The position numbers and the translations under genes were made by a program. Positions 29,741-45,620 of a stretch of DNA of 64,000 nt are shown in pieces. The stretch spans positions 1 to 64,000 of the forward strand of contig NZ_SOBE01000003.1 of NCBI RefSeq assembly GCF_004364285.1, in the 5' to 3' direction. How positions within the stretch are numbered: position 1 is the first letter of the stretch; each line of letters opens with the position of its first letter. The stretch comes from Frigoribacterium sp. PhB116. Its GTDB lineage: Bacteria; Actinomycetota; Actinomycetes; Actinomycetales; Microbacteriaceae. The notes under the pieces are model-generated. The model had not been told where the DNA came from. It did no database searches and was given only the letters and a program-made list of their open reading frames with translations.

Positions 29741-30234
29741 GCGGCGAAGCGCTCCACGCGCAGCACGCAGCTCAGGTCGGCGGAGTCGACGGCGAGCTGC
29801 GCCTCCCACTCGGCGGTCTCGCCCGCGGCGACCGAGTCGAGGTCGACCTGGGTCAAGCCGAGGGTCGCCTGGTCGCCGTCGAGCAGCGACACGTAGATCC
29901 GGTAGTGCTGGGCCGCGTCCGTGGGGTTCGCGGCCGTGCCGGTGACCGTGTACGCGCCTCCGTCGAGCTCGCAGGCGGTCTGCTGCACGTCCTGCAGGGC
30001 TCCCACGAAGTCGGGCGCCGTGCCCGGGTCGTCCTGGATGTCGGTGACGGCGGGCGCCGCGGCGGCCGTGCTCGAGGGCGTGGGCGACGGGCTGGCGTCG
30101 CCGTCGCCTCCCCCGGTGCAGCCGGCGAGGGCGACGACGAGCGCGGCGCCCCCGAGCACGGCCACGGCCGAGCGGGTCAGCGCGGAGCGGGAGCCGGCGG
30201 CGGAGGCGCGGAGCAGGGCGGGTCGGGTGGTCAT
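29737..30234 (-). CDS. Small secreted lipoprotein of unknown function
   Basis: A 165-residue predicted lipoprotein. An arginine-bearing n-region leads into the hydrophobic stretch AVAVLGGAALVVALAGC, where the lipobox cysteine is Cys39. A Ser/Pro/Thr linker follows, then a beta-rich domain of about 95 residues with two cysteines (QQTACELDGGAYTVTGTAANPTDAAQHYRIYVSLLDG and AVDSADLSCVLRVERF) that probably pair. The domain resembles the small FxLYD-like beta-sandwich lipoproteins of actinobacteria. The long n-region is kept because its ATG overlaps the stop of the giant protein (ATGA at 30231-30234). It is co-translated with the surface protein and the LuxR-type regulator, so a role in presenting or sensing that protein is plausible but unproved. 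Confidence 0.82.
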   Translation of the reverse strand: MTTRPALLRASAAGSRSALTRSAVAVLGGAALVVALAGCTGGGDGDASPSPTPSSTAAAAPAVTDIQDDPGTAPDFVGALQDVQQTACELDGGAYTVTGTAANPTDAAQHYRIYVSLLDGDQATLGLTQVDLDSVAAGETAEWEAQLAVDSADLSCVLRVERFAA

Positions 30235-33200
30235 GAGTGTCCTCTCGGGCGAGCGGTCGTCGTGCGCACGTCCCGGTCGCGACGCCGGCCCGTGAGGGCC
30301 AGGCCGAGGCCGGCGACCAGCAGCACCAGGGCGAGGAGCGCCGGGGCGGCCACCTCGTCGCCGGTGAAGGCCAGCACGCGGTCGTGGGTCGGGACGACGA
30401 CGGTGTCGTCGTCGCGGGTCGGGTCGGGGGTCGGGTCGGGGCTCGTCACGGGCGGCACCGTGCCGTCGGGGCCGGTGCCCGTGCCGATCGCGGTCGCCGT
30501 GTTGGACACCTCACCGGCTGCCACGTCGGCGGCGGTGACGGTGTACGCGGCGGTCGCGACGACGCGCTGTCCGGGTGCGAGCACGCCGGGCTCGCCGGGC
30601 CACGACTCGTACCGTACGTCGCCGAGGCCGGGCATCTCGTCCTCCACGCCGACGCCGACCAGCGTCACCGTGCCGGTGTTGACGACGACGAAGCGGTAGT
30701 CGAGCTGCTCGCCGAGGCGTCCGGCGCTGCCGGGCGCGTAGCTGACGGTCTTGGTCAGCTCGACGCCCGAGCGCGGGACCACCGTGACGACGGTCGTGTC
30801 CTCGTCGGCGCGCAGGGCGCCTCCCGCGGTCGTCCCGAGGACGGAGGCGGTGTTGCGGACGAGGCCCGCGTCGACGTCGGCCTGGGTCAGCACGTAGTCG
30901 GCCGTGGCCGTCACGCCCTGCGCCGGGGCGAGCACGCCCTCGGCGCCGGGCCACGGTCCGAACACGACCTCGCCGAGGCCGGGCAGCTCGTCGGTCAGCG
31001 CGAGGCCCGAGAGGGTCTCGTCGCCGGTGTTGACGACCTCGAACCCGAAGCGGACGAGCCCGCCGGCGGCGCCCTCGCCGACGAGGGCGCCGGTCTTGCG
31101 CAGCGAGACGCTGGACGAGCCGGGCAGCACGACCCCCGCCTCGTCGACGTCGTCGACCGTCGCGCCGCCGGGCGCCTCGCCCGTGGCGGTCACCTCGGAG
31201 GTGACGATCCCCGCGTCGACGTCGCGCTGCGTGAGCACGTACGTGGCGCTCGCGGTCACGCTCTGCCCGGGCTCGAGCACGCCGGGCTCGCCCGGCCAGG
31301 TGCCGAACACGATCTGCGAGAGGCCGGGCTGCGCGTCGGACAGCGTCACGCCGCGCAGGGTCACCGAGCCCGCGTTCCGCACGACGTAGCCGAGCTGCAG
31401 CACGTCGCCGGCCCTGCCGGTCGCCCCGTCGGCCATGACCTGCGTCTTGGCGACGGTGAGGCCGGCGACGGCGGGCGCGGTGCGCACGGTCGCCTGCGCG
31501 GCAGCCCCGACGGCCTCGCCGGTCGGCCGGGTCGAGGAGGCGGTGGCCGTGTTGGTCACGGCGCCCGCGTCGACGTCGGCCTGGGTCACCGTCGACGTGG
31601 CGACGGCCGTCACGGACTCCCCCGGGGCGAGCCTGCCCTCGACGGTCGGCCAGGGGCCGAGCACGAGGGGGCTGAGGCCGGGCAGCGGGTCGGCGACCTG
31701 CACGCCCGAGAGCGTGACGCCGCCCTCGTTGCGCAGGGTGATCGTCCAGTCGACGACGTCGCCCGCGAGGCCGGAGCCGCGCAGGGCGCCGGTCTTGGCC
31801 ATGACCAGGGCGGCGTCCGCGACGAGCGGGGTGCGGCCGTCGGCCGAGGCCGAGACGTCGGCCGGGCCGCCGGGGCTGCCGGGGCCGCCCGGGCCGCGCA
31901 CGGGCGTGCCGGTCGCGGTGACGGTCGACGCGATCGCGCCGGCGTCGACGTCGGCCTGGGTCAGCACGTAGCCGGCGGTGGCCGTGACGCTCTGGCCGGG
32001 GGCCAACGCGCCGACCGCGCCCGGCCAGGGGCCGACCACGAGGTCGCCGAGACCGGCCTGGCCGTCGGCGAGCCGCACGTCGGTCAGGGTGACCGAGCCG
32101 GTGTTCCTGACGGTGAACGTGAAGGGCACGGTGTCGCCGGCGACGCCGGCGGTGCCCTCGGGCAGCGCCTGCGTCTTGGTCACGGCGAGGCGCGGCGCGA
32201 CGTCGGCGGTCGCGATCGTCGCCGCGTCGCTCGCCACGGCCGCGGCGCCGGTCGGCGGGACGCCGGAGGCGGAGGCCGCGTTCACGACCGAGCCCGCGTC
32301 GACGTCGGCCTGGGTCACCGCGTACCGGGCCGTGGCGACGACGGACTCGCCGGGGGCCAGCACGCCGGCCGCGTCGGGCCAGCCGTCGGCCGTCCCGCCG
32401 GTGTACGTGACCACGGAGAGCCCGGGCAGCGGGTCGCTCACCACGACGTCGGTCAGCGTGACCGTGCCGGTGTTCGTCACGAGGACTCGGTACTCGACCA
32501 CGTCGCCGACGCGGCCGGAGCCGCCGTCCGCCCACCGCGCCTCCTTGTCGACCGCGAGGGCCGGCGAGGAGGGCAGCACGAGCGGGACGGCGTCGGTCGC
32601 CGAGACCGGGGTGGCCGCGGCGTCGTCGCCCACCGCGGTCGCCGTCGCGCGGGTGACGAGCACCCCGGCGTCGACCTCGGCCTGCGTGAGCACGTGCCGG
32701 GCGGTGAACGTCGCGGAGGCGCCGGGCGCGAGGACGCGGGCGAAGTCGCCCTGGCCGGTCCACGAGACGAACGAGATGTCGCTGAGGTCCGGCTGCTCGT
32801 CGGCGACCGCGACGTCGCGGACGGTGACGTCGCCGGTCGAGGTGACGACCCAGGTGTGGACGACCTCGTCGCCGGCGCGTCCGGTCGCGCCGGGCGCGAG
32901 GGCGACCTGCTCGACGAGCCCGAGGCGGGGCCCGTCGGCCGTCAGCGGCACGGCCGTGCGCGCGTCGGCGAGCACGGCTGCTCCCGACGGCGCGGTGCCC
33001 GAGACGGTCGCGGCGTTGACGACGCTGCCGCGGTCGACGTCGGCCTGCACGACCGCATAGGTCGCGGTGCCGGTGACGACCTGGCGCGGCGCGAGCACGC
33101 CGACCTCGCCCGGCCAGGGGCCGAGCTCGACGGCGGAGACGCCGTTCAGGCGGTCGTCGACCGCGACGCCCGACACCGTGACGGCGCCGGTGTTCGTGAT

Positions 33201-36200
33201 CGTGAAGGCGAACGAGACGCCGTCGCCGACGCGGCCGGTCGTGCCCGAGGGCCCGGCGGTCAGCGCGCCCGTCTTCGTGAGCGCGAGCGAGGCCGTGCCG
33301 TCGAGGCGCACCTCCTGCACCTCGGAGGCGCGGACGGCGGGGCCGCTCGGCGGCGTACCCACGACGCTGCCGCGCGAGGCGACGACGCCGCGGTCGACGT
33401 CGGCCTGCGTGAGCACGTAGCTCGCCGTCGCCGTGACCGTCCGGCCGGGCGCGAGGGTGCCGGCCGCCGCGGGCCAGCCGCCGTACGAGACGACGGAGGC
33501 GCGGGCCTGGTCGTCCGACACGACGACGCCCGAGAGGGTCGCGTCCCCCGTGTTCGTGACGAGGTACTCGTAGCGGACGACGTCGCCGGCCACCCCGGCG
33601 GCCCCGGGCTCCAGGGTCGCCGTCTTGACGATCTGGACTGCGGGTGCGGTCACGGCCGTCGCCAGGGCGGCGCCGTCGCGGACGACGAGGGGGTCGCCGG
33701 CGCCGGCCGGCGGAGCGGCACGGAGCGTCGCGACGTTCACCAGCGCGCCGGAGTCGACGTCGGCCTGCGTCACGACCCGGTCGACCGTCGTGGTGACGCG
33801 CTGGCCCGGGGCGAGCGTGCCGGGGGTGCCCGGCCAGGTCGCCGGCGCGACGACGCCGGAGGGGTCCGCCTCCGTGGCGGTCATCGGGTCGGTCACGACG
33901 ACGTCGGAGAGCGTCACCGTGCCGGTGTTCGCGACCGCGATCGTGAAGCGGGCGACGTCGCCGACGCGACCGGCGCCTCCGGCGACCCACGACGCCGTCT
34001 TGTCGACCGAGGCCGAGGCGGTCCGCGCGAGCTCGACGCCGGCGGCGGCGTCGGACGCGACGACCGAGCCGTCGGGCGTCGTGCCCGTGGTGCGGGCCGA
34101 CGAGCTCACGGCGCCGGCGTCGACGTCGGCCTGGGTCAGCACGTACCTCGCGGTGGCGGTGACGCTCTCGCCGGGCAGCAGGCGGTTCGTCGGGCTCGGC
34201 CAGGGGCCGAAGACGACCGGGGAGGCACCGGTCAGGGCGTCCGCCAGGGTCACGCCGGTGAGGGTGGCCGTCCCGGTGTTCGTCACGACGTACGAGAACT
34301 CGACCGTGTCGCCGGCGACGCCCGCGGCACCCGTCGCGAGGGCGGCGGTCTTCTCGACGCCGATCGCGGCGGCCGTGGGGGCGGTGGACGCCGTGGCCGC
34401 GCTGCTCGCGGTCAGCGGTGCGCCGGTCGGCGGGCTGGCGAGCACCCGCGCCGAGTTCACGACCGAGCCGCTGTCGGCGTCGGCCTGGGTGACCCGGTAG
34501 GTCGCCGTGCCGGTGACGGTCTCGCCCGGCGCGAGGCGCCCGGCGGTCCCGCTCGGCCAGGTCGCGACGGCCACGGGCGAGAGCCCGACGAGGGCGTCGT
34601 CGAACACGACGCCGTCGAGGGTGACGGTGCCGGTGTTCGTCGCGGTGAAGGTGTACCGGAGCGCGTCGCCGGGCGCCGTGCCCGTGGCCGGCGCGACGGT
34701 CTTCGCGAACGCCAGCGCGGGCTGCGGCGGCACGACGACGGTCTTCTCGTCGCTCGCGGTCACGGTCTGCGCAGGCGCCGACGAGCGGCCGGAGGTCGTC
34801 GCGACGGACGACACCGAGCCGCGGTCGACGTCGGCCTGGGTCAGCACGTAGAAGGCGGTCGCCTGCACGGACTCGCCGGGCGCCAGGGTGCCGGCGGTGC
34901 CGCCCGGCCAGGTGCCCGTGGTGATCGTGCCGAGGCCCTGCTGGCCGTCGGCGAGGACGACGCCGGTGAGCGTCGTGTTGCCCTGGTTCGTGACGGTGAA
35001 CGAGTACTCGACCCGGTCGCCGGCGCGACCGGTCGCGCCCTCGGCGAGCTGCGCCTCCTTCGTCAGGCCCACGACCGGGCCCTGCGGCGCCGCCTGCACG
35101 GTGGCCGACGCGGGTCGGCGGACGACGGTGCCGTCGGGCGCGGTGGCGAAGGCCGTGGCCGTGTTCGTGATCGCGCCGCCGGCGTCGAGGTCGCTCTGGC
35201 GGATCGTGTACGAGGCGCGTCCCATGACCCGCTCGCCCGGGGCGAGCACGCCCACGGCGCCCGGCCAGCGGTCGAACGTCACGTCGCTGAGGCCCGGCAT
35301 CTCGTCGACGATGTCGAGCAGACTGAGCGTGACCGTGCCGGTGTTGCGCACCTGGAACGTGTAGTCGACGCCCTGGCCCACCTGGCCGGTCGTGCCGGCG
35401 GCGAGGCGCCCTGCCTTGGTGAACGACATGGTCGAGACCTGGTCGACCGTGACTCCGGCCGTGGCGTCGGCGCGCACGGGCGTGCCGCCGGGGCCGGTGC
35501 CGGTCACGTGGGAGGCGCTGGTCACGCCCCCGGCGTCGACGTCGGCCTGGGTGAGCGTGTACGTCGTCGTCGCGGTGACGCTCTGGCCGGGCGCGAGGCG
35601 ACCGGCGGTGCCGCCGGGCCAGGCGCCGAAGACGGGAGCGGGGGCGCCGACCTGGTCGTCGGCGAGCTGGACGCCCGTGACGGTCTGGTTGCCGGGGTTG
35701 GTGACGACCCAGCTGAGCTGGACGGCGTCGCCGGCGACGCCGCGCGCCCCCGGCGCGAGCGCCTCGGTCTTGGTCAGCGCGAGGGCAGGTCGTCCGGAGC
35801 TGGTCGCGAGCGTCGCGGCGTCCGACGCGCGCACGGTCTCGCCGCGTGCCGGCTGGGCCGAGACCGTGGCGCGGTTCGCGACCGAGCCGGCGTCGAGGTC
35901 CTGCTGCGTGAGGACGTAGGAGGCGGCGCCCGCCGCGGTCTCCCCCGGCGCGAGCACGCCCACGACGGCCGGCCACTGCCAGGCGATCGTGCCGAGGCCC
36001 GGCAGCGGGTCGGCCACGTCGACGCCCGAGAGCGTCACGGCGCCGGTGTTGCCGACGGTGAACGAGTAGCTGGCGACGTCGCCGACCGCACCCGCGCCTC
36101 CTGCGGCGTACGTCACCGACTTGTCGAGCGACACGGCGGCGGGCGCGGTCAGCGGCGTCGACGCGGAGGTGCGCGCGGCGACCGCGTCGCCCTGCGGCGA

Positions 36201-39200
36201 GGTGCCGGAGGCGACGGCCGGCGACGAGAGACCTCCGGCGTCGACGTCGGCCTGGGTCAACACGTGGGTGGCCGTCGCGGTGACGCTCTGCCCGGGGGCG
36301 AGCGTCCCCGCCGAGGTCGGCCAGGAGCCGACGACGAGGTCGGAGAGCCCGGCCTGCGCGTCGGACAGCACGACGTCGGTCAGCGTCGACGTGCCCGTGT
36401 TCGTCACGGTGAACGAGTACGTCACGACGTCGCCGGCCACGCCCGCGGCGCCGACGGGCAGCACCTGGGTCTTGGCGACCGAGAGCGCGGGCGTCGTCGG
36501 GGCGAGCGCGAGGGTGTGCACGCCGGTGCCCGTGACGGGCTCGCCCGAGGGCGGGGTCGCGGTGGCGAGCGCCTGGTTGACGACCGCTCCGGCGTCGGCG
36601 TCGCCCTGCGTGACCGTGTACGACGCGGTGGCGCGCACCTGCTCGCCGGGGCCGACCTGGCCCACCGGGCCGGGCCACTCGCCGAAGCGGACGTCGCCGA
36701 CGCCGGCGAGGGCGTCGCGCACCGTCAGCAAGTTCAGGGTCACGTTGCCGCGGTTGACGACGACGAACTCGTAGTCGATGCGGTCGCCGACCACGCCGCG
36801 TGCGCCGTCGGCGAGCGTGCCGGTCTTGGTGACCGCGACGTCGGGCCGCTCGACGACCTCGGTGCGCGCGTCGGCGGTGCCGGCGACGCGGGCGCCGCTC
36901 GGCGGGGTGCCGCGCGTGGTGGCCGTGCTCGACACGCCGCCCGCGTCGACCTCGGCCTGGCTGAGCACGTGGGTCGCGGTCGCGGTGACCGACCGGCCGG
37001 GGGCGAGGGTGCCCGCCGTGCCGCCCGGCCAGGGGCCGAACACGGCGTCGGTGACGCGCGCCTGGCCGTCGCGCACGGTGACGCCGGTGAGCGTGACGCC
37101 TCCGGTGTTCGTGACGACGTACGAGTACTGGACGGTGTCGCCGGCGACGCCGGTGGCGTCGGGCGCGAGAGCCTGCGTCTTGACGATGCCGATCGACGGC
37201 GCGGCCGAGGTCGCGACGACGGAGGCGGAGGCCCTCGCCGTCGGGGCGGCGCCCGAGCCCGCGGGAGGCGTGCCGCCCGCCGAGGCGGTGTTGACCGCCG
37301 CGCCGGAGTCGACGTCGGCCTGCGTGACCACGCGGTCGGTCGTCGCGGCGATCGACTCGCCGGGCAGCAGCGTGCCCTCCGCGGTCGGCCACGTGCCGTA
37401 CTGCAGCGGCGTCGCGTCGGCCAGCGCCTCGACGATCGCGACGCCGGTCAGCGTCGTCGTGCCGGTGTTGCGCGCCGTCAGCGTGTAGCGCAGGGTGTCG
37501 CCGAGCTGGACGGACGGGACGGCCGAGCCGTCGGTCGCGGATGCCCGCTTGTCGAGGACGAGCGCGTTGTCGCGGGTGCTCACGACCGAGCCGTCGGCCT
37601 GGTCGGTGACGACCCGCGGGGTGCCCGGGCCGCCGGGCGTGCCCGACGCGCCGGGCGCCGTGCCGCGGGCGACCGCCGAGGAGGCGATGCCCCCGGCGTC
37701 GACGTCGGCCTGCGTCAGCCGGTAGGTCGCGGTGGCGGTGATCGACTGGCCGGGCGTCAGGGTGCGGTCCGCGTTCGGCCACGGGCCGAAGACGATCTCG
37801 GAGATCCCGGGCTGGGCGTCGGTCAGCTGCACGTCGCTGAGGGTCGTGTCTCCCGCGTTGGTCAGCGTGTACGCGAAGCGCACCTCGTCCCCGGCGACGC
37901 CACGGGCGCCTCCGTCGAGCTGCTCGGCCTTGTCGAGCGTGACCGAGGGCGACTGGGCGGCGGTGTCGAGGGTGAACGAGCGGGTCGAGGTGATCGGGTC
38001 GCCGGCGGGCGGGTTCGCGATGGCCGTGGCGGTGTTCTCGACCCGGCCGCGGTCGACGTCGGCCTGGGACACCCGATACGACGCGGTGCCCTGGGCCGAG
38101 CTGCCGGGCGCGAGCGAGCGGCCCTCGCCGAGACCCGTGTACGTGACGGCACCGATGCCGGGCAGCGGGTCGCTGACCTCGATCAGGTACAGGGTCACGT
38201 TGCCCGTGTTGACGACGTCGAAGGCGTAGTCGACGCGGTCGCCGAGGCGACCGGCCGCGCCGCCGGCGAAGGCGCCGGTCTTCTCGAACGAGTAGCCGGG
38301 CGCGGCGGCGACGAGCAGGCTGCGCACGTCGGCGGCCTCGACGCGGTCGCCCGCGGCGTCGACCGAGCGTGCCGTCACGGAGGCGGCGCTCCGGACGCGT
38401 CCGGCGTCGACGTCGGCCTGGGTCAGCGTGTACGAGGCCGTGAAGCGCACCGTCTGCCCGGGCGCGATGCGGCTGTCGCCCGTCCACGGGCCGCCGTCGG
38501 CGAGGGCGACGTCGCCGAGGCGGGCCTGGTCGTCGCTCACGACGACGTCGGTCAGGGTCGAGGCGCCCGTGTTCGTCACGTCGAAGGTGAACGAGACGCG
38601 GTCGCCGGCACGGTGCACCGCGGCGTCGGGGTCGGCGAACAGCTCGGTCTTGACGAGGCCGACCTGCGCGGCGGCGTCGAGCTGGATCGAGGCGCTCGCG
38701 ACGCCGGTGGGCGTCGTGCCGTCGGGGGCCGACGCGGAGGCGGTGGCCCGGTTGACGAGCAGGCCGTCGTTCGCGTCGACGTCGGCCTGCGTCACCACGT
38801 GGCGCCCGGTGCCCTTGACGGACTCCCCCGGCAGCAGCGTGCCGGCGGCCGCGGGCCACGGCCCGAGCTGCACGGTCACGCCTGCCATGTCGTCGGCCAC
38901 GCCCACGCCGGTCAGCGTCGTGTTGCCCGTGTTCGTGACGAGGAACGAGTACACGACCGTCTCGCCGACGTCGGTCTGCTGGCCGTTGGTCGTCGAGGCG
39001 TCGAACGCGGCCGTCTTGGCCAGCGCGAGCGCGGGCGCCCGGGTGACGGGCGCCTCCGCTTCGGCGGTCGCCTGGACGGGCCGGCCGTCGGACGCCGTGC
39101 CCGAGGCGGTCGCGGCCGAGCCGATGCGGCCCGCGTCGACGTCGGCCTGCGTCAGGCGGTAGGCGCCCGTCGCCGTGGCGCTCTCGCCCGGGCGCAGCGT

Positions 39201-42200
39201 CACGGTCGTCGAGGTGCCCGAGCCCCAGGTCACCGCCGAGAGGCGGGCCTGCTCGTCGAGGATCGAGATGCCCGAGACGGTCACGTTGCCGGTGTTGGTG
39301 ACGACGTAGGTGAAGACGGCGCCGTCGTTCGCCGTCGTGGGGCCCGAGGCCGGCGGCGTGACGGTCTCGGTCTTGGTCAGCTCGAGGCGGGGCGCGCTCG
39401 TGGCGGTGGCCACGGTCGCGGCCGCGGTGGCCGTGACGGTCCCGCCGCCGGCCCCGGTCGCCGTCGCGCGTGCCGTGTTGACGACGGCTCCCGCGTCGAC
39501 GTCGCCCTGCGTCAGCACCGAGGAGGCCGTGGCCGTCGCCCGCTCGCCGGGCGCGAGCACGCCGTCGGCGCCCGGCCAGGAGACGACGGGCGTCGTGATG
39601 CCGGGCAGGGCGTCGGTGATCGCCGCGCCGGACAGCGTCACCGTGCCGGTGTTGACCAGCACGAAGCGCCACTCGACCGTGTCGCCGACCGCACCGGCGC
39701 CTCCTGCGGTCACCGCCCCGGTCTTCGTCAGCTGGACGCCCGGCGCCTGCCGGGTCGTGACCTGTCCGTCGGCGTCGGCGCGCACCACGGCGCCGCGCGG
39801 AGCGGTGCCCGTGGCGGTCGCGTTCGAGCCGACCCGCCCGGCGTCGACGTCGGCCTGCACGAGGGTGAAGCTCGAGCTCGCCGTCACCGACTGGCCGGGG
39901 GCCAGGGTGCCGGCGGTGCCGCCCGGCCAGGCGCCGTAGACGACGGCCGTGGCGCGGGGCTGCTCGTCGGCCACGCCGACGCCGGTGAGGGTCGTCGTGC
40001 CCGTGTTCGTGATCGTGTAGCCGAGGTCGACCGTGTCGCCGACGTCGCCGGCCGCCGTGCCGCGGAGGGCCTCGGTCTTGACGAGCCCGATCGCCTGGCT
40101 GCCCACGGCCGTGGGGACGGTCTCGGCGTCGGACGCCGTGACGGTCGTGCCGGGAGCGCCGCCGTCTGCGGCGCCGGCCGGTCCGGTCGCGGAGGCGGTG
40201 GCCGTGTTCGCGACGCTGCCCGCGTCGACGTCGGCCTGGGTCAGCACGTAGGTCGCCGTGGCGCGCACGGTCTGGCCGGGGGCGAGCTGGCCGCTCACCG
40301 CGCCGGGCCAGGTGCCGTACGAGATGGCCGAGAGGCCGGGCAGGCGGTCCTCGACGGTGACGCCCGAGACGGTCTGCGAGCCCGTGTTCATCACGTCGAA
40401 GCGGTAGGTGACGCGGCTGCCGACCGCGCCCGAGCCGGCCACGACGGCCGTCTTGTCGAGGGCGATCGCCGGGGCGGAGCCGATCGGCTGCACGGCCGTC
40501 GCCTCGGCCGACGTCTGGACGCCCTGCGGCGTCGCGCCGCGCACGGAGGCGCGGTTGGCCACGCTGCCGGCGTCGGCGTCGGCCTGGGTCACGACGTAGC
40601 GGGCCGTGGCGGTGACGGTCTCCCCCGGGGCGAGGCGGCCGGCGGCGCCCGGCCACGTGTAGGCCAGGGTGCCGAGACCGGCCAGCGGGTCGGCGATGCC
40701 GACGCCGGTCAGGGTGACGGTGCCGCGGTTCGTGGCCGAGAAGCGGTAAACGAGCGCGTCGCCGGCGCGGCCGGCCGAGCCGCCCGCGACGGGCGCGACC
40801 TGCTTGGTCAGCGCGAGGGCGGGCGACGAGGTGATCGGCACGGTCGCGGCGCCGGAGGCGGTGGTCGCCGCCCCGCCGGGGGCCGTGCCGCGGGCCGTCG
40901 CCGTGTTGACGACCGCGCCGGCGTCGACGTCGGCCTGCGTCACGGCGGCCGAGGCGCGGGCGACGAGGGCCTGCCCGGGCGCCAGCTGACCGGGGGTGCC
41001 CGGCCAGGTCAGCACGGGCTCGCTGAGGCCGGCGAGCGAGTCGCTCAGCACCACGGAGCCCAGCGTGACCGTGCCCGTGTTCGTCACGCGGATCGTGAAG
41101 TCGGCGACGTCGCCGGCGGCGCGGGTCGACCCGGCGCGCAGGGCGCCGCTCTTCGCGACGGCGAGCCCGGCGGTCTGCGGCACCGCGGTCGTGGCCGTCG
41201 CGCCCTGGGTCACGAGAGCGTTCTGGGGGGTCCGGCCGGAGGCGGTGGCCGTGTTCACGACGCTGCCCCGGTCGGCGTCCGCCTGCGTCAGGCGGTAGCT
41301 GGCCGTGGCCGTGACGGCCTGGCCGGGCGCGAGGGTGCCCGCGGTGCCGCTGGCCCAGGTGCCGTACGAGACGGCCGAGAGACCGGCCAGCGGATCGGTC
41401 ACGGCGACGCCGCGCAGCGTCACGGCGCCGGTGTTGACGACGCGGAACGAGTAGGTGACGACGTCGCCGGCGGCGCCCGTCGCGCCGGATGCGAGGGTGC
41501 CGGTCTTCGTCAGGCCGAGCGAGCCGGGCGCGCTGATCGGAGCCGTGGCGGAGCCCTGGCCCTGGACGGTGCCGAGCGCCGGGGTCCGGCCGGAGGCGGT
41601 GGCCGTGTTCACGACGGAGCCCGCGTCGGCGTCCGCCTGCGTCACGGCGTACGTCGCGGTCGCCGTCACGCGCTGGCCCGGCGCGAGCGTGCCGGGGGTG
41701 CCGCTCGGCCACGTGCCGTACGACACGGCGGAGAGCCCGGGCAGGGGGTCGGCGACCGCCACCGAGGTGAGGGTCTGCGTGCCCGAGTTCGTCGCGGTGA
41801 ACGTATAGGTGAGCACGTCGCCCGCGCGGGCCGCGGTGCCCGCGACCGACTTCGTCAGCGCGATCGCGGGGGCCGGGGCGACGGTGACGAGGGCGGACCC
41901 GCTCGCGCGCACCGCGCCTCCTGCGGGCGGGGTGCCGGAGGCGGTGGCCGTGTTCGCGACGCTGCCCCGGTCGACGTCGGCCTGGGTCAGCGCGTAGCGC
42001 GCGGTCGCCGTCACCTGCTGGCCCGGCGCGAGCGTGCCCGCGGTGCCCGGCCAGGTGCCGTACGTGACGGCCGAGAGCCCGGGCAGCGGGTCGGTCAGGG
42101 CGACGCCGGTGAGGCTGACGTTGCCCGAGTTGCGCACGGTGAACGTGTAGTCGACGCGGTCGCCGGCGCGGCCCTGGGCGTCGGCCGCGAGCAGGCCCGA

Positions 42201-45200
42201 CTTGGCGACGGAGATCGCGGGCGACGAGGCGACCGGCACGGTCGCGGCCGCGTTCGAGCTGGCCCGCTGGCCGTTCGCCGGGGTGCCGGTCGCGGTCGCC
42301 GTGTTGACGACGGAGCCCGCGTCGACGTCGGCCTGGGTGAGCGCGTAGCTGGCCGTCGCCGAGACCTGCTGGCCCGGTGCGAGACGGCCGGGGGTGCCGC
42401 TCGGCCAGGTGCCGAAGGCCACGCGGTCGGCCACCAGCGGGTCGGTGACCGCGACGCCGTCGAGGGTCGAGGCGCCCGTGTTGCGCACCGTGAACGACCA
42501 GGTGACGACGTCGCCGACACGGCCGGTCGCGCCCGGGGCGAGCGTGCCCGACTTGGTCAGCGAGACGGTGCTCGCCGCGGCCACGTCGACCGAGGCGGTG
42601 GCGGTCTGGCGCACCGCGGCTCCGGACGGCGGGTTGCCCTGCACGGTGGCCGTGTTCTGCACCCGGGCGGCGTCGACGTCGGCCTGGGTCAGCGTGTACG
42701 GCGCGGTCGCCGTGACGGCCTGCCCGGGGGCGAGGGTGCCGGCGGTGCCGCTCGGCCAGGTGCCGTACGTGATCGGGCCGACGCCGGCGACGGCGTCGGT
42801 GATCGTCACGCCGCGCAGGGTGACGGAGCCGGTGTTGGCGGCGCTGAAGCTCCAGGTGACGACGTCGCCGGCACGGCCGGAGGCACCGGCGGCGAGTGCG
42901 CCGGTCTTCGTCAGCGAGACGGACGAGCCGGTCGAGAGCGGCAGCGTCGCCGCGGCCGCCGACGAGACGGCCGCGCCGCTCGGGGGCGTGCCGGTGCCGG
43001 TGGCGCGGTTCACGACCGAGCCGGAGTCGACGTCGCTCTGCCGCACCGTGTAGGTCGCGGTCGCGGTGACCTGCTGGCCGGGGCGCAGGGTGCCGGAGGT
43101 GCCGCTCGGCCAGGTGCCGTAGCTGAAGGCCGAGAGACCGGTCAGCGGGTCGCTCGCGGCGACTCCCGTGAGCGTCTGGTTGCCCGTGTTCGACAACGTG
43201 ACGGTGTACGTGACGACGTCGCCGGCGACTCCGGCGGCGCCTGCGGGCAGCGCGGCGCGCTTGGTGGTGGCGAGGGCGGGCGCGGCGGCGACGGCGACGC
43301 TGGTCGAGGCCGTGTTCGACGTGACGGCGGCGCCGCTCGGCGACGCCGCGCGGGCGGTGGCCGTGTTCGGCACGGTGCCGCGGTCGACGTCGGCCTGGGG
43401 CAGCGTGTACGGGGCGGTGGCCGTGACCTGCTGCCCGGGGGCGAGGCGGCCGGCCGTGCCGCTCGGCCAGGTGCCGTAGGCGATCGTGCCGACGCCCGCG
43501 ACGCCGTCGGTGATCGTCGCGCCGGTGACGGTCTGGTTGCCGCTGTTGCGCAGCGTGAAGGAGAAGGTAACGACGTCGCCGGCACGGCCGGTGCTGCCGG
43601 CGGGGAGGGCGCCGGTCTTCGTGAGGGCGAGGGCCGGGTTCGCCGGCACGGCGGTGCGGGCGGTCGCGGAGGCGGTGGGCTGGGGGCCGCCGTCGGCGTC
43701 GGTGCCGACGACCTGGGCCGTGTTCGAGATCGAGGCGGAGTCGACGACCGCCTGCGTGAGGGCGAAGGTCGCGGTGGCGGTGACCGACTGCCCCTCGCCG
43801 AGGGTGCCGGCGGTGCCGCTGGGCCAGGCGCCGTAGGTGAGGCCGGAGAGGCCCGGGAGGCTCGTGTCCGTGATGCTGACGCCCGTGAGGGTGCCGCCGC
43901 CGGTGTTGCGGGCGGTGAAGGTGTAGGTGACGACGTCGCCCACGGCCCCGGTCGAGCCGGAGGGGAGCGCGCCCGTCTTCGTGAGCGCGATCGCGCTGAG
44001 GTGCACGGTCGTCGTGCCGGTGCTGGTGACGCTGACCGCGCTGTTGCCGGCGGCGGTGCCGGTCGCGGTGGCCGAGCTGACCTGGTTCGCCTGCGTGGGC
44101 GGCGGGCCGGTGCAGTTGAAGGTGACCACGGCACCGACCGCCAGGGTCCCGACGGTCCTCCGGCACTCCGGGTTGTCCGGATCGGCCACGACCACGTTCG
44201 TCAGCGCCACGGAGCCCGTGTTCGACACGGTGATCTGGAACCGCGTGTTCTCGGTGGCGACCCGGTACTGGTCGCCGATCGTGCCGTCGAGGCTCTTGAC
44301 CACCGTCAGGGAGGCGGTGGGCACGCTGAGCACGGCGCTGCGCAGCAGGTACGAGTCGCCGCTGGTGCCGATCTGCAGGTTGATCGAGGTGTCGCCCGCC
44401 TGGACGCCGGGAAGGGTCGTGGTCGCGGCGTCGACGCTCGCGTTCGTGAAGACCGGCGTGGCCGCCGACCCGGTCTGCGTGTAGCGCGTCGAGCCGTCGG
44501 CGCGGCTGATGCCGACGTTGTCCAGGGCCCCTGCGGCGTTGGGGATCTCGGCGTACGCCCCGGCCTGGCGGTTGTAGCGCATGTAGTCGCCGGTGATGCC
44601 CCGGTCGCCCTCGAACAGCGTGTAGCCGAAGCGGGCGGCGCCGAGCGACGAGAAGCCCGAGAACGCGACGGTGAGGTCGGGGTCGGAGGCGCCCTCGCGC
44701 ACGTGGCCCTCGTAGTAGATGACGCTGTGCGGCTCGGAGGCGGTGTTGCCGGGGACGTAGCTGCCGTAGTCGTAGACGACCGTCAGCGACCAGCCGGCGT
44801 AGCAGCCCGCCCCGACGGGGGCCCAGATGTCGCCGGCCGAGACGGCGAGCGCGCTGCCGGTGGCGGCGCCCGCGAAGGCGGCCGTCACGTCGGCGCCGGC
44901 GCTGTAGTAGAGCGCCGTGCCGGGGGCCGTGGCGGCGGTGTCCTCGAGCACGCCGGTCGCGGGGACGCTGCGCACGGCGGCCGAGCCGACCTTGAGCTTG
45001 GCCGCCTGCGTGCGGTAGCCCGACGAGCTGTCGGGACGGGTCGCCAGCGGCGACTGGCCGCTGACCACCTGGTTCTGCGTCAGGGCGCCGCAGCGCAGCG
45101 CGTCGGCTCCGGTGCGCCCCGCGAAGACGCCCGTGTTCGCGCTCCAGCTGAGGAAGGCCTTCGCGACGGTGGCGCCGGAGGGGATGGTGACGGAGGCGGA

Positions 45201-45620
45201 GCTCGAGTTGGTCGTGAAGCCCGAGACGGTGTTCGAGGCCTGCATCGAGAAGTAGTCGTTGACGTTGTTCGTGGCGGTCGTGGTGCCCGCGTGCAGGTTC
45301 GCGCAGGTGCCGGCGCCCGAGACGACGGCCGTGCCGCAGGCGAGCACCCCGTTGCCCACCTGCAGGAAGTCGCCGTTGACCGTGTCCCGCCAGGACGGGG
45401 CGGTGCCGCCGGCTGTACCCCACTGGACGACGGCTGCCTCGGCACGTTCGGCGGGGTCGACGAGCGAGAGGCCGGTCACGGGCACGATCACGGCGAGGAC
45501 GACGGCGACGACGCGCATCGGCAGCGGCCAGGCGCTGCCGCCCGCGCGGTGGCGCGGTCGACGGCGGACGTGGCGGGCGGAGCGGTCACGGCGCGTCGGG
45601 GCGTCGGGGGTTGCGGGCAC
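30231..45620 (-). CDS. Giant secreted surface protein with about 39 DUF11/DUF7507-type repeats and a LAFTG sorting signal
   Basis: A 5129-residue predicted cell-wall protein. Residues 1-62 are an arginine-rich n-region, a hydrophobic core (VVAVVLAVIVPVTGLSLV) and an AEA cleavage site. Residues about 63-435 form an N-terminal beta domain with several cysteines and the GWSLTVVYDYG and FSGFSSLGAARFGYTLFEGDRG stretches usual in giant DUF11 proteins. One divergent repeat (from about 437) and 38 repeats of about 119 residues follow (544 to about 5048). Each starts like LTKTGAL-xxG-xxGxxGDVV and carries NTG, WP-x-GxLxPGQ and TQADVDAG motifs. Residues 5083-5087 are LAFTG, then a membrane helix and an RRR tail, which is a class E sortase signal; no sortase gene is in the window. 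Start is GTG with a GAGGA ribosome-binding site. Likely an adhesin or stalk; function is inferred. Confidence 0.9.
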   Translation of the reverse strand: MPATPDAPTRRDRSARHVRRRPRHRAGGSAWPLPMRVVAVVLAVIVPVTGLSLVDPAERAEAAVVQWGTAGGTAPSWRDTVNGDFLQVGNGVLACGTAVVSGAGTCANLHAGTTTATNNVNDYFSMQASNTVSGFTTNSSSASVTIPSGATVAKAFLSWSANTGVFAGRTGADALRCGALTQNQVVSGQSPLATRPDSSSGYRTQAAKLKVGSAAVRSVPATGVLEDTAATAPGTALYYSAGADVTAAFAGAATGSALAVSAGDIWAPVGAGCYAGWSLTVVYDYGSYVPGNTASEPHSVIYYEGHVREGASDPDLTVAFSGFSSLGAARFGYTLFEGDRGITGDYMRYNRQAGAYAEIPNAAGALDNVGISRADGSTRYTQTGSAATPVFTNASVDAATTTLPGVQAGDTSINLQIGTSGDSYLLRSAVLSVPTASLTVVKSLDGTIGDQYRVATENTRFQITVSNTGSVALTNVVVADPDNPECRRTVGTLAVGAVVTFNCTGPPPTQANQVSSATATGTAAGNSAVSVTSTGTTTVHLSAIALTKTGALPSGSTGAVGDVVTYTFTARNTGGGTLTGVSITDTSLPGLSGLTYGAWPSGTAGTLGEGQSVTATATFALTQAVVDSASISNTAQVVGTDADGGPQPTASATARTAVPANPALALTKTGALPAGSTGRAGDVVTFSFTLRNSGNQTVTGATITDGVAGVGTIAYGTWPSGTAGRLAPGQQVTATAPYTLPQADVDRGTVPNTATARAASPSGAAVTSNTASTSVAVAAAPALATTKRAALPAGAAGVAGDVVTYTVTLSNTGNQTLTGVAASDPLTGLSAFSYGTWPSGTSGTLRPGQQVTATATYTVRQSDVDSGSVVNRATGTGTPPSGAAVSSAAAATLPLSTGSSVSLTKTGALAAGASGRAGDVVTWSFSAANTGSVTLRGVTITDAVAGVGPITYGTWPSGTAGTLAPGQAVTATAPYTLTQADVDAARVQNTATVQGNPPSGAAVRQTATASVDVAAASTVSLTKSGTLAPGATGRVGDVVTWSFTVRNTGASTLDGVAVTDPLVADRVAFGTWPSGTPGRLAPGQQVSATASYALTQADVDAGSVVNTATATGTPANGQRASSNAAATVPVASSPAISVAKSGLLAADAQGRAGDRVDYTFTVRNSGNVSLTGVALTDPLPGLSAVTYGTWPGTAGTLAPGQQVTATARYALTQADVDRGSVANTATASGTPPAGGAVRASGSALVTVAPAPAIALTKSVAGTAARAGDVLTYTFTATNSGTQTLTSVAVADPLPGLSAVSYGTWPSGTPGTLAPGQRVTATATYAVTQADADAGSVVNTATASGRTPALGTVQGQGSATAPISAPGSLGLTKTGTLASGATGAAGDVVTYSFRVVNTGAVTLRGVAVTDPLAGLSAVSYGTWASGTAGTLAPGQAVTATASYRLTQADADRGSVVNTATASGRTPQNALVTQGATATTAVPQTAGLAVAKSGALRAGSTRAAGDVADFTIRVTNTGTVTLGSVVLSDSLAGLSEPVLTWPGTPGQLAPGQALVARASAAVTQADVDAGAVVNTATARGTAPGGAATTASGAATVPITSSPALALTKQVAPVAGGSAGRAGDALVYRFSATNRGTVTLTGVGIADPLAGLGTLAYTWPGAAGRLAPGETVTATARYVVTQADADAGSVANRASVRGATPQGVQTSAEATAVQPIGSAPAIALDKTAVVAGSGAVGSRVTYRFDVMNTGSQTVSGVTVEDRLPGLSAISYGTWPGAVSGQLAPGQTVRATATYVLTQADVDAGSVANTATASATGPAGAADGGAPGTTVTASDAETVPTAVGSQAIGLVKTEALRGTAAGDVGDTVDLGYTITNTGTTTLTGVGVADEQPRATAVVYGAWPGGTAGTLAPGQSVTASSSFTLVQADVDAGRVGSNATATGTAPRGAVVRADADGQVTTRQAPGVQLTKTGAVTAGGAGAVGDTVEWRFVLVNTGTVTLSGAAITDALPGITTPVVSWPGADGVLAPGERATATASSVLTQGDVDAGAVVNTARATATGAGGGTVTATAAATVATATSAPRLELTKTETVTPPASGPTTANDGAVFTYVVTNTGNVTVSGISILDEQARLSAVTWGSGTSTTVTLRPGESATATGAYRLTQADVDAGRIGSAATASGTASDGRPVQATAEAEAPVTRAPALALAKTAAFDASTTNGQQTDVGETVVYSFLVTNTGNTTLTGVGVADDMAGVTVQLGPWPAAAGTLLPGESVKGTGRHVVTQADVDANDGLLVNRATASASAPDGTTPTGVASASIQLDAAAQVGLVKTELFADPDAAVHRAGDRVSFTFDVTNTGASTLTDVVVSDDQARLGDVALADGGPWTGDSRIAPGQTVRFTASYTLTQADVDAGRVRSAASVTARSVDAAGDRVEAADVRSLLVAAAPGYSFEKTGAFAGGAAGRLGDRVDYAFDVVNTGNVTLYLIEVSDPLPGIGAVTYTGLGEGRSLAPGSSAQGTASYRVSQADVDRGRVENTATAIANPPAGDPITSTRSFTLDTAAQSPSVTLDKAEQLDGGARGVAGDEVRFAYTLTNAGDTTLSDVQLTDAQPGISEIVFGPWPNADRTLTPGQSITATATYRLTQADVDAGGIASSAVARGTAPGASGTPGGPGTPRVVTDQADGSVVSTRDNALVLDKRASATDGSAVPSVQLGDTLRYTLTARNTGTTTLTGVAIVEALADATPLQYGTWPTAEGTLLPGESIAATTDRVVTQADVDSGAAVNTASAGGTPPAGSGAAPTARASASVVATSAAPSIGIVKTQALAPDATGVAGDTVQYSYVVTNTGGVTLTGVTVRDGQARVTDAVFGPWPGGTAGTLAPGRSVTATATHVLSQAEVDAGGVSSTATTRGTPPSGARVAGTADARTEVVERPDVAVTKTGTLADGARGVVGDRIDYEFVVVNRGNVTLNLLTVRDALAGVGDVRFGEWPGPVGQVGPGEQVRATASYTVTQGDADAGAVVNQALATATPPSGEPVTGTGVHTLALAPTTPALSVAKTQVLPVGAAGVAGDVVTYSFTVTNTGTSTLTDVVLSDAQAGLSDLVVGSWPTSAGTLAPGQSVTATATHVLTQADVDAGGLSSPAVASGTSPQGDAVAARTSASTPLTAPAAVSLDKSVTYAAGGAGAVGDVASYSFTVGNTGAVTLSGVDVADPLPGLGTIAWQWPAVVGVLAPGETAAGAASYVLTQQDLDAGSVANRATVSAQPARGETVRASDAATLATSSGRPALALTKTEALAPGARGVAGDAVQLSWVVTNPGNQTVTGVQLADDQVGAPAPVFGAWPGGTAGRLAPGQSVTATTTYTLTQADVDAGGVTSASHVTGTGPGGTPVRADATAGVTVDQVSTMSFTKAGRLAAGTTGQVGQGVDYTFQVRNTGTVTLSLLDIVDEMPGLSDVTFDRWPGAVGVLAPGERVMGRASYTIRQSDLDAGGAITNTATAFATAPDGTVVRRPASATVQAAPQGPVVGLTKEAQLAEGATGRAGDRVEYSFTVTNQGNTTLTGVVLADGQQGLGTITTGTWPGGTAGTLAPGESVQATAFYVLTQADVDRGSVSSVATTSGRSSAPAQTVTASDEKTVVVPPQPALAFAKTVAPATGTAPGDALRYTFTATNTGTVTLDGVVFDDALVGLSPVAVATWPSGTAGRLAPGETVTGTATYRVTQADADSGSVVNSARVLASPPTGAPLTASSAATASTAPTAAAIGVEKTAALATGAAGVAGDTVEFSYVVTNTGTATLTGVTLADALTGASPVVFGPWPSPTNRLLPGESVTATARYVLTQADVDAGAVSSSARTTGTTPDGSVVASDAAAGVELARTASASVDKTASWVAGGAGRVGDVARFTIAVANTGTVTLSDVVVTDPMTATEADPSGVVAPATWPGTPGTLAPGQRVTTTVDRVVTQADVDSGALVNVATLRAAPPAGAGDPLVVRDGAALATAVTAPAVQIVKTATLEPGAAGVAGDVVRYEYLVTNTGDATLSGVVVSDDQARASVVSYGGWPAAAGTLAPGRTVTATASYVLTQADVDRGVVASRGSVVGTPPSGPAVRASEVQEVRLDGTASLALTKTGALTAGPSGTTGRVGDGVSFAFTITNTGAVTVSGVAVDDRLNGVSAVELGPWPGEVGVLAPRQVVTGTATYAVVQADVDRGSVVNAATVSGTAPSGAAVLADARTAVPLTADGPRLGLVEQVALAPGATGRAGDEVVHTWVVTSTGDVTVRDVAVADEQPDLSDISFVSWTGQGDFARVLAPGASATFTARHVLTQAEVDAGVLVTRATATAVGDDAAATPVSATDAVPLVLPSSPALAVDKEARWADGGSGRVGDVVEYRVLVTNTGTVTLTDVVVSDPLPGLSVVTYTGGTADGWPDAAGVLAPGESVVATARYAVTQADVDAGSVVNAASASGVPPTGAAAVASDAATIATADVAPRLAVTKTQALPEGTAGVAGDTVPFTFTVRNTGSVTLTDVRLADGQAGLGDLVVGPWPGAVGALAPGQSVTATAGYVLTQADVDAGAIASTVTATGTPVRGPGGPGSPGGPADVSASADGRTPLVADAALVMAKTGALRGSGLAGDVVDWTITLRNEGGVTLSGVQVADPLPGLSPLVLGPWPTVEGRLAPGESVTAVATSTVTQADVDAGAVTNTATASSTRPTGEAVGAAAQATVRTAPAVAGLTVAKTQVMADGATGRAGDVLQLGYVVRNAGSVTLRGVTLSDAQPGLSQIVFGTWPGEPGVLEPGQSVTASATYVLTQRDVDAGIVTSEVTATGEAPGGATVDDVDEAGVVLPGSSSVSLRKTGALVGEGAAGGLVRFGFEVVNTGDETLSGLALTDELPGLGEVVFGPWPGAEGVLAPAQGVTATADYVLTQADVDAGLVRNTASVLGTTAGGALRADEDTTVVTVVPRSGVELTKTVSYAPGSAGRLGEQLDYRFVVVNTGTVTLVGVGVEDEMPGLGDVRYESWPGEPGVLAPGQRVVATAAYTVTAADVAAGEVSNTATAIGTGTGPDGTVPPVTSPDPTPDPTRDDDTVVVPTHDRVLAFTGDEVAAPALLALVLLVAGLGLALTGRRRDRDVRTTTARPRGHS
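30477..43991 (-). repeat. Array of 38 repeats of about 119 codons inside the surface protein
   Basis: The 38 canonical repeats fill 13.5 kb with no spacer. Repeats 1-11 (before about 40098) are one subtype. From repeat 12 to about 37, even-numbered repeats carry a D-x-Q motif (ADEQ, SDDQ, LADGQ, LSDAQ) and an S-for-N change after TQADVDAG, whereas odd-numbered repeats keep the DPLP/DxLxG form and VNTAT ending. The repeats are divergent in sequence, so the array is old and should be stable to recombination. Confidence 0.85.

Follow-up and report, generated by a model that had tools for sequence, protein, structure and literature searches.

Triad-intact and Asn-less DUF7507 domains alternate in a giant surface stalk of Frigoribacterium

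The customary picture of an isopeptide-bonded stalk is a string of beads, each of them locked. Other surface stalks set two kinds of domain in turn, e.g., the G5 and E domains of SasG, which are different folds. As described in the accessible part of PMC4458895, SasG carries no covalent cross-links and its E domains are intrinsically disordered, whereas both domain types of the stalk presented here share one predicted fold. The Mobiluncus mulieris adhesin (7651 residues, 51 Ig-like domains) is likewise giant, wall anchored, and of mixed cross-link classes; according to the available text of PMC10619420, each of its domains is cross-linked by an ester or an isopeptide bond, whereas half of the alternating block of our stalk is Asn-less. 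Periscope proteins are also long tandem-domain surface stalks and are portrayed in the accessible portion of PMC9704523 as built from highly identical repeats in variable number; our stalk departs from this pattern, with neighbors 41-56% identical and a domain number that is constant in four full arrays. The nearest systems are the DUF7507/CLIPPER_2 (PF24346) and DUF11/CLIPPER (PF01345) domains, which, in the sections of PMC12617251 available to us, resemble our stalk in family, in tandem stalk arrays, and in a predicted Lys-Asp-Asn triad. In that 2025 survey of intramolecular isopeptide bonds, DUF7507 is predicted to link Lys to Asn by an isopeptide bond, Asp being the catalytic residue, the family having been built from predicted isopeptide domains (reference member Lys72-Asp112-Asn152), and the triad of the DUF11 crystal structure 9IFR is given as Lys715, Asp748, and Asn806. 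Since CLIPPER_2 is presented in the same text as so far without structural characterization, the bond in DUF7507 is a prediction. The text also reports that some DUF11 domains lack the bond and that DUF11 and DUF7507 domains often alternate. Giant cross-linked stalks (PMC10619420), DUF7507 as a predicted isopeptide family, and bond-less DUF11 domains (PMC12617251) are already known, as far as the accessible parts of these reports go. What differs from the accessible account in PMC12617251 is that here a single family alternates triad-intact and Asn-less domains, with covarying Gln47 and Tyr28, at positions common to two genera. Our literature search, in which most subscription papers were out of reach, showed no description of such a within-family alternation among the papers listed.

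The window, i.e., the whole 64,000-nucleotide stretch of DNA analyzed, encodes the stalk in a frame that starts with GTG (Table 1). Its N terminus is basic and then hydrophobic, as in export signals. All 39 repeats, spaced by 106 to 127 residues, matched PF24346, 38 of them at 74 bits or more and the degenerate first one at 29.3 bits (cutoff, 27). We number this first repeat D0 and the others D1-D38 (D equals repeat number R minus 1); positions 8, 28, 45, 47, and 91 are columns of a profile built from the stalk's own repeats. The LAxTG pattern at the C terminus is a class E sortase motif. Three proteins of the genome match the sortase family PF04203, all encoded away from the stalk locus, and several relative stalks have LxxTG-like C-terminal ends. 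The protein is probably a giant sortase-anchored fibrillar surface protein of CnaA/Ig-like DUF7507 (CLIPPER_2) domains. The N-terminal head yielded no family in a Pfam scan of residues 1-434 at an E value of 0.001, be it one of adhesins or one for the thioester domain of TIE (thioester, isopeptide, ester) proteins; its AF2 model (mean pLDDT, 77.2) has weak and mixed matches in the PDB, with TM-scores to the query of at most 0.26 among the 50 matches listed. Of 398 family genomes, 27 contain the head (the own genome included, and one instance being a 32-residue piece), and these fall in 13 of 85 genera, the nearest named relative being Frigoribacterium faeni (93% identity). High GC probably accounts, by a mirror effect, for the antisense frame that spans the stalk gene. 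Contig 1 of the same genome encodes a second DUF7507-like protein (locus L013; 1153 residues), one of whose six repeats carries the full triad.

Table 1. Features of the stalk locus, in window coordinates
Feature	Coordinates	Strand	Remarks
LuxR/ATPase-type regulator gene	27014-29809		After the FxLYD gene
FxLYD-domain lipoprotein-like gene	29737..30234	-	NCBIfam NF038353, E 6.8e-8; start overlaps stalk stop by 4 bases
Giant surface protein, 5129 aa	30231..45620	-	Export signal, head, 39 DUF7507 domains, LAFTG anchor
Antisense open frame, 5129 codons	30237-45626	+	Spans whole stalk gene
N-terminal head (aa 60-434, 375 residues)	44319..45443	-	Predicted beta-rich
D0, degenerate first repeat (aa 435-540)	44001..44318	-	29.3 bits to PF24346
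D1-D11, uniform block	40101..44000	-	Lys8-Asp45-Asn91 in all
D12-D37, alternating block	30774..40100	-	B in even domains (core lacks Asn), A in odd ones (Lys-Asp/Glu-Asn core)
D12, first B domain	39747..40100	-	K8 Y28 D45 Q47 S91
D14, B domain	39039..39395	-	Tyr28
D16, B domain	38304..38672	-	Phe28
D18, B domain	37572..37952	-	Tyr28
D20, B domain	36849..37202	-	Tyr28
D22, B domain	36144..36494	-	Phe28; middle domain of AF2 model
D24, B domain	35439..35792	-	Trp28
D26, B domain	34725..35081	-	Phe28
D28, B-phase exception	34023..34373	-	Ser91 but Leu47; Tyr28
D30, B domain	33297..33647	-	Tyr28
D32, B-phase exception	32568..32933	-	Glu8, Trp28, Gln47, Thr91
D34, B domain	31818..32198	-	Phe28
D36, last B domain	31119..31469	-	Tyr28
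D38, last repeat	30426..30773	-	A-type core
LAFTG sorting motif	30360..30374	-	Then hydrophobic stretch and basic tail

The same 4-base stop/start overlap, followed by a protein that looks alike by eye, recurs in nine of nine relatives (L009, L010, L014, L015, L016, L019, L020, L022, and L028), the FxLYD match itself coming from the window gene. Given this conserved overlap, the stalk and the FxLYD protein are probably made together, and the latter is a candidate dedicated partner of the stalk. The opposite flank of the stalk gene, at 47-58 kb, holds genes of polysaccharide type.

A first-pass annotation of the sequence had described one subtype in repeats 1-11 and an A/B alternation from repeat 12 onward. 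Both are real, and its even repeats are those with even D numbers. D1-D11 form one type, with Asn91 throughout and Leu or Val at 47. Residue 91 of the 13 even domains from D12 to D36 is Ser (12) or Thr (1), never Asn; Asn91 is kept in all odd domains from D13 to D37. Twelve of the 13 B domains carry Gln47, the residue at 47 being otherwise usually Leu. The annotation was right that D32 deviates, and D28 is an exception that it did not name. Over D12-D37, identity is 0.453 at an offset of two domains versus 0.414 at an offset of one, and all even offsets lie above the odd ones (offsets 1-12; 1-10 in a second run); over D11-D37 (R12-R38), taken here as the second part, in which the annotation had expected greater similarity at two repeats than at one, the values are 0.445 and 0.403. 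Identity in the first part (R03-R12) is 0.555 and 0.553 at these offsets. The same-parity excess was never reached in 20,000 label shuffles, nor, in as many, once the two motif regions had been removed (0.444 versus 0.406), and order shuffles of D12-D37 reached the difference between offsets 2 and 1 in 33 of 10,000 trials. The predicted separation in a tree of the 39 repeats held in part: the B domains cluster, with 3 changes versus 10.9 after shuffling (0 of 500 as low), but form one clade in 5% of bootstraps. For the A domains of the alternating part, that tree calls for 6 changes.

The two sites that alternate lie at or close to members of the predicted isopeptide triad, which the first-pass annotation had not recognized. 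A profile of 17 own A domains placed Lys8 on Lys715 and Asn91 on Asn806 of 9IFR, a weak match (E 0.19) that ranked behind two others at E values of 0.11 and 0.12, which look like chance; single-repeat phmmer searches of the PDB gave nothing at E values up to 1. Asp45 falls one residue past Asp748 as printed in the table of PMC12617251, which we ascribe to a slip in the numbering or to an alignment shifted locally. By this alignment, Asn91 is the predicted bond-forming Asn and residue 47, which changes from Leu or Met to Gln, the second after the predicted catalytic Asp, which means that the stalk alternates domains predicted to be competent for cross-linking with Asn-less ones. Of the 38 domains, the 25 of A type (D1-D11, odd D13-D37, and D38) all have Lys, Asp or Glu (one Glu45), and Asn, and should thus lock themselves by a Lys-Asn isopeptide bond. 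None of the 13 B domains has Asn91, their residues at 8, 45, 47, and 91 being K-D-Q-S in 11, K-D-L-S in one, and E-D-Q-T in one.

We infer, with confidence slightly above even, that locked A domains are interspersed with noncovalent, extensible B domains. Each A domain would be locked by a bond between Lys8 and Asn91, with Asp45 as the catalytic residue, and every second domain of the wall-proximal two-thirds would carry Ser or Thr for the bond-forming Asn. With Lys8 and Asp45 nearly always kept, Gln47, and Tyr28 in about half of the domains, B would most likely be a stable fold without a covalent bond. Under load, A would resist unfolding, whereas the regularly spaced B domains would open and dissipate force; the 11 head-proximal domains would remain fully locked. 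The AF2 prediction for D21-D22-D23 scores well (mean pLDDT, 95.5; pTM, 0.76), and the strands of the two types correspond in it, which makes B look properly folded. Foldseek and VIA matched this model mostly to integrin and protocadherin chains and to some bacterial adhesins, i.e., generic beta-sandwich stalks, 9IFR being absent among the matches listed. The mechanical part of the proposal draws on the ester-bond domain of Cpe0147, a model for locked versus unlocked states although its bond is a Thr-Gln ester and its family is not DUF7507; in the accessible part of PMC8382745, the ester-deprived domain unfolds at approximately 92 pN and the bonded form is inextensible. By analogy, extension would fall to the B domains, the A domains on either side being locked. 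The contrast may nevertheless be weaker, one of degree, because isopeptide-bonded CnaA-like domains are themselves reported, in the part of PMC12617251 available to us, to unfold partly under tension.

Comparison with the relatives bears on whether the alternation has been maintained. Among arrays at 25 relative loci, 38 profile matches, as in our own array, were found in those of F. faeni (G003), Curtobacterium pusillum (G226), and G336 (same genus as G226), i.e., 39-domain arrays; 12 loci have 47 or 48 matches, and two (L035 and L036) have no repeat match. The stalk gene at L015 (G336) is interrupted by a stop in its head, and those at L018 (G354) and L027 (G148) are split over two frames. 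Ser or Thr91 occupies all 13 even positions from D12 to D36 in our array and in L009, L015, and L016. Over the 52 B positions of the four 39-domain arrays, Asp45 is present in all and Lys8 in 51. Odd positions have Asn91 except for D13 of G336 and G226, which has Asp91 and lacks Lys8 and Asp45 as well; D31 of the same two arrays lacks Lys8. Paired with the B domains of L015, which is from another genus, ours share residue 45 in all 13 pairs, residues 8 and 91 in 12 each, and residue 47 in 10, at a mean column identity of 0.53; among 113 columns, Asp45 ranks 1, Lys8 and residue 91 rank 11, and Gln47 ranks 22. The pattern over the first 27 domains recurs in Microbacteriaceae PS02333, whose array may be close to that of G336, C. 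pusillum AA3, and Curtobacterium MCBA15_009. All 38 domains of F. faeni pair one to one with ours. Full one-to-one orthology between Frigoribacterium and Curtobacterium was unsupported, with 14 of 38 reciprocal best pairs, 7 of them at the same position; zero shift was nonetheless the best register, at 0.511 versus at most 0.490 at other shifts. None of 5000 within-parity shuffles of L015 D12-D37 reached the zero-shift identity; for L016 D25-D37 alone, 113 of 5000 did, and shift -6 lay above zero.

The first-pass annotation had proposed that the array expanded by single domains at first and by a two-domain unit later, a view that our data support in part. The period of two from D12 and a compatible single origin of B agree with this, but the later A domains are not set off as a group from D1-D11, needing 6, 7, and 8 changes in three trees. 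When three relatives are added and the motif columns left out, the tree places 48 of the 52 B domains, together with D37 of our array and of F. faeni, on one side of a branch (SH-aLRT 83); a single clade of all 52 was not rejected (p-AU 0.923), the likelihood of the constrained tree being higher by 58 units. In a 94-domain tree that adds 18 domains from three 47-domain arrays, again with the motif columns removed, 24 of 26 B domains and four Gln47-type domains of the added arrays share one side of a branch with support 0. These trees are compatible with a single origin of the B subtype across the four arrays, and B may be an old subtype that spread in A-B doublets before the arrays of Frigoribacterium and Curtobacterium diverged, or else before one genus received its array from the other. 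Same-type identity hardly drops with distance (rho -0.06, P = 0.45 in our array; -0.03, P = 0.67 in L009; -0.20, P = 0.014 in L015 and L016), and single duplication steps are therefore unreadable.

The compatible single origin also fits a functionless alternation, in which the amplified doublet just happened to hold one Asn-less domain. Higher-order repeats with little or no Asn loss, as in L022, L070, and L034, speak for this reading. The tested arrays of 47-48 domains (L010, L014, L020, L022, L026, and L028) have a period of 6 and partly also of 3, faint in L028; for domains 1-38 of L022, identity is 0.546 at offset 6 and 0.522 at offset 3 versus 0.473-0.482 at offsets up to 10 that are not multiples of 3, and in L021-L024 only three late domains lack Asn91. 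An array of at least 51 DUF7507 domains (L070, G516) has a period of 4, with identity of 0.65 at offset 4 versus 0.47-0.49 at offsets 1-3 and 5-7, and no Asn loss in 51. The 33-domain array at L034 (G186) has a period of 2 and Asn91 in all 33, so a period of 2 does not require Asn91 loss. As a separate observation, domain number is nearly fixed across several genera among the 47-48-domain arrays.

We nevertheless consider a functionless by-product unlikely. The B domains retain Asp45 and Lys8 almost without exception although the Lys-Asn bond is impossible in them, and parity has been kept between genera at an identity of approximately 0.51. Several 47-domain arrays lose Asn in one domain of three (7 of 9 Asn91-less domains of L020 lie in one phase of three), and the second frame of G148 loses it in alternate domains over its first 13; both use other cores. 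Moreover, Asn91 losses favor the wall-proximal part of the stalks: across 18 arrays (those below 33 domains and two frame-split ones left out, and a Ser-bearing first domain uncounted), only 9 of the 302 domains in the first 40% have lost Asn91 to a residue other than Asp, versus 121 of the 481 that remain. As a separate observation on Asn91, in G502 (L071/L072), an 8489-residue frame whose DUF7507 repeats are approximately 0.8 identical in its first part, three Asn91-to-Asp changes occur in the last 25 domains.

Asp45 is kept in 13 of 13 and Lys8 in 12 of 13 own B domains, and Tyr28 is present in 7. We scanned the other 115 columns for residues present in at least 30% of Ser/Thr91 domains with Lys8 kept. 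Gln47 came first and Tyr28 second in our array (11/12 versus 0/25; 7/12 versus 0/25), in the four 39-domain arrays (45/50 versus 0/96; 33/51 versus 2/96), and in other arrays (21/35 versus 0/631; 15/35 versus 1/632). This joint enrichment in Asn-less domains points to a B core that has been rewired rather than decayed. In the 39-domain arrays (own, L009, L015, and L016; 152 domains less 2 with gaps), 46 of the 53 Asn-less domains have Gln47, and none of the 97 with Asn does. The corresponding counts for the 22 other array pieces (809 domains less 30 with gaps) are 28 of 108 and 1 of 671, so that 80 of these 108 Asn-less domains lack Gln47; because the arrays are related, these domain counts are not phylogenetically independent. 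When Lys8 is also lost from Ser/Thr91 domains, Asp8 (28/43) and Tyr28 (41/48) prevail and Leu47 is commonest. Three cores emerge at positions 8/28/45/47/91: K-F-D-L-N, K-Y/F-D-Q-S, and D-Y-D/E-L-S. A class-wide, nonrandom sample of the best-scoring matches listed (frames with at least three domains; 148 domains set aside for gaps) weakens the exclusivity of Gln47 to Asn-less domains, since 3 of 211 domains combine it with Asn91; among 15 Asn-less domains, the 2 that have Gln47 both carry Asp91, and many of the calls of a lost Lys in this sample are alignment ends.

The association of Gln47 with Lys8 raises the question of whether B carries another covalent bond, either Lys8-Gln47, the amide having moved to a neighboring position, or a Ser/Thr91-Gln47 ester. 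Across 26 array pieces, Gln47 is found in none of 727 domains with both Lys8 and Asn91, yet in 45 of 50 (39-domain arrays) and 21 of 37 (others) Asn-less domains that keep Lys8, against 1 of 3 and 7 of 71 that have lost it, and Thr-Gln esters are known in bacterial adhesins, as the accessible parts of PMC10619420 and PMC8382745 relate. We still judge such a bond quite improbable. Gln47 occurs without Lys8 (our D32; D-Y-E-Q-S domains in L028), which argues against a Lys-Gln bond, and Ser91 occurs without Gln47, which argues against an obligatory ester; in the AF2 model, Gln47 sits just beyond the strand that ends at Asp45. The more specific proposal that Gln47 replaces Asn91 as the partner of Lys8 in a Lys-Gln isopeptide, so that the stalk alternates two cross-link geometries, is one that we likewise hold to be improbable.

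The first-pass annotation had suggested that alternating faces give the stalk two ligand or packing surfaces. Further columns do differ between A and B, and the periods of 2, 3/6, and 4 in the relatives are such as phased faces might give; the columns that best separate the two types, though, hold the Asn of the predicted isopeptide and the second residue past the catalytic Asp, both expected in the core from the published triad, so that this suggestion found no support and now seems very unlikely. Least credible of all is an alternation that makes neighbors unlike to prevent similar domains from misfolding side by side, such misfolding linked to identity being raised in the accessible part of PMC9704523: neighbors in D12-D37 are indeed 0.41 identical versus 0.46 for domains of the same parity, but those in D1-D11 are 0.56 identical and those in L071, whose array comes from a different family within the class, 0.80.

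Membership in DUF7507 alone is thus no warrant for calling every copy cross-linked. If B domains are indeed noncovalent, extensible elements between locked A domains, this natural stalk and its one-in-three relatives would be a ready-made series for testing whether domain order is how bacteria adjust adhesin mechanics, and the paired A and B cores would offer a route to asking what a bond-free core requires.
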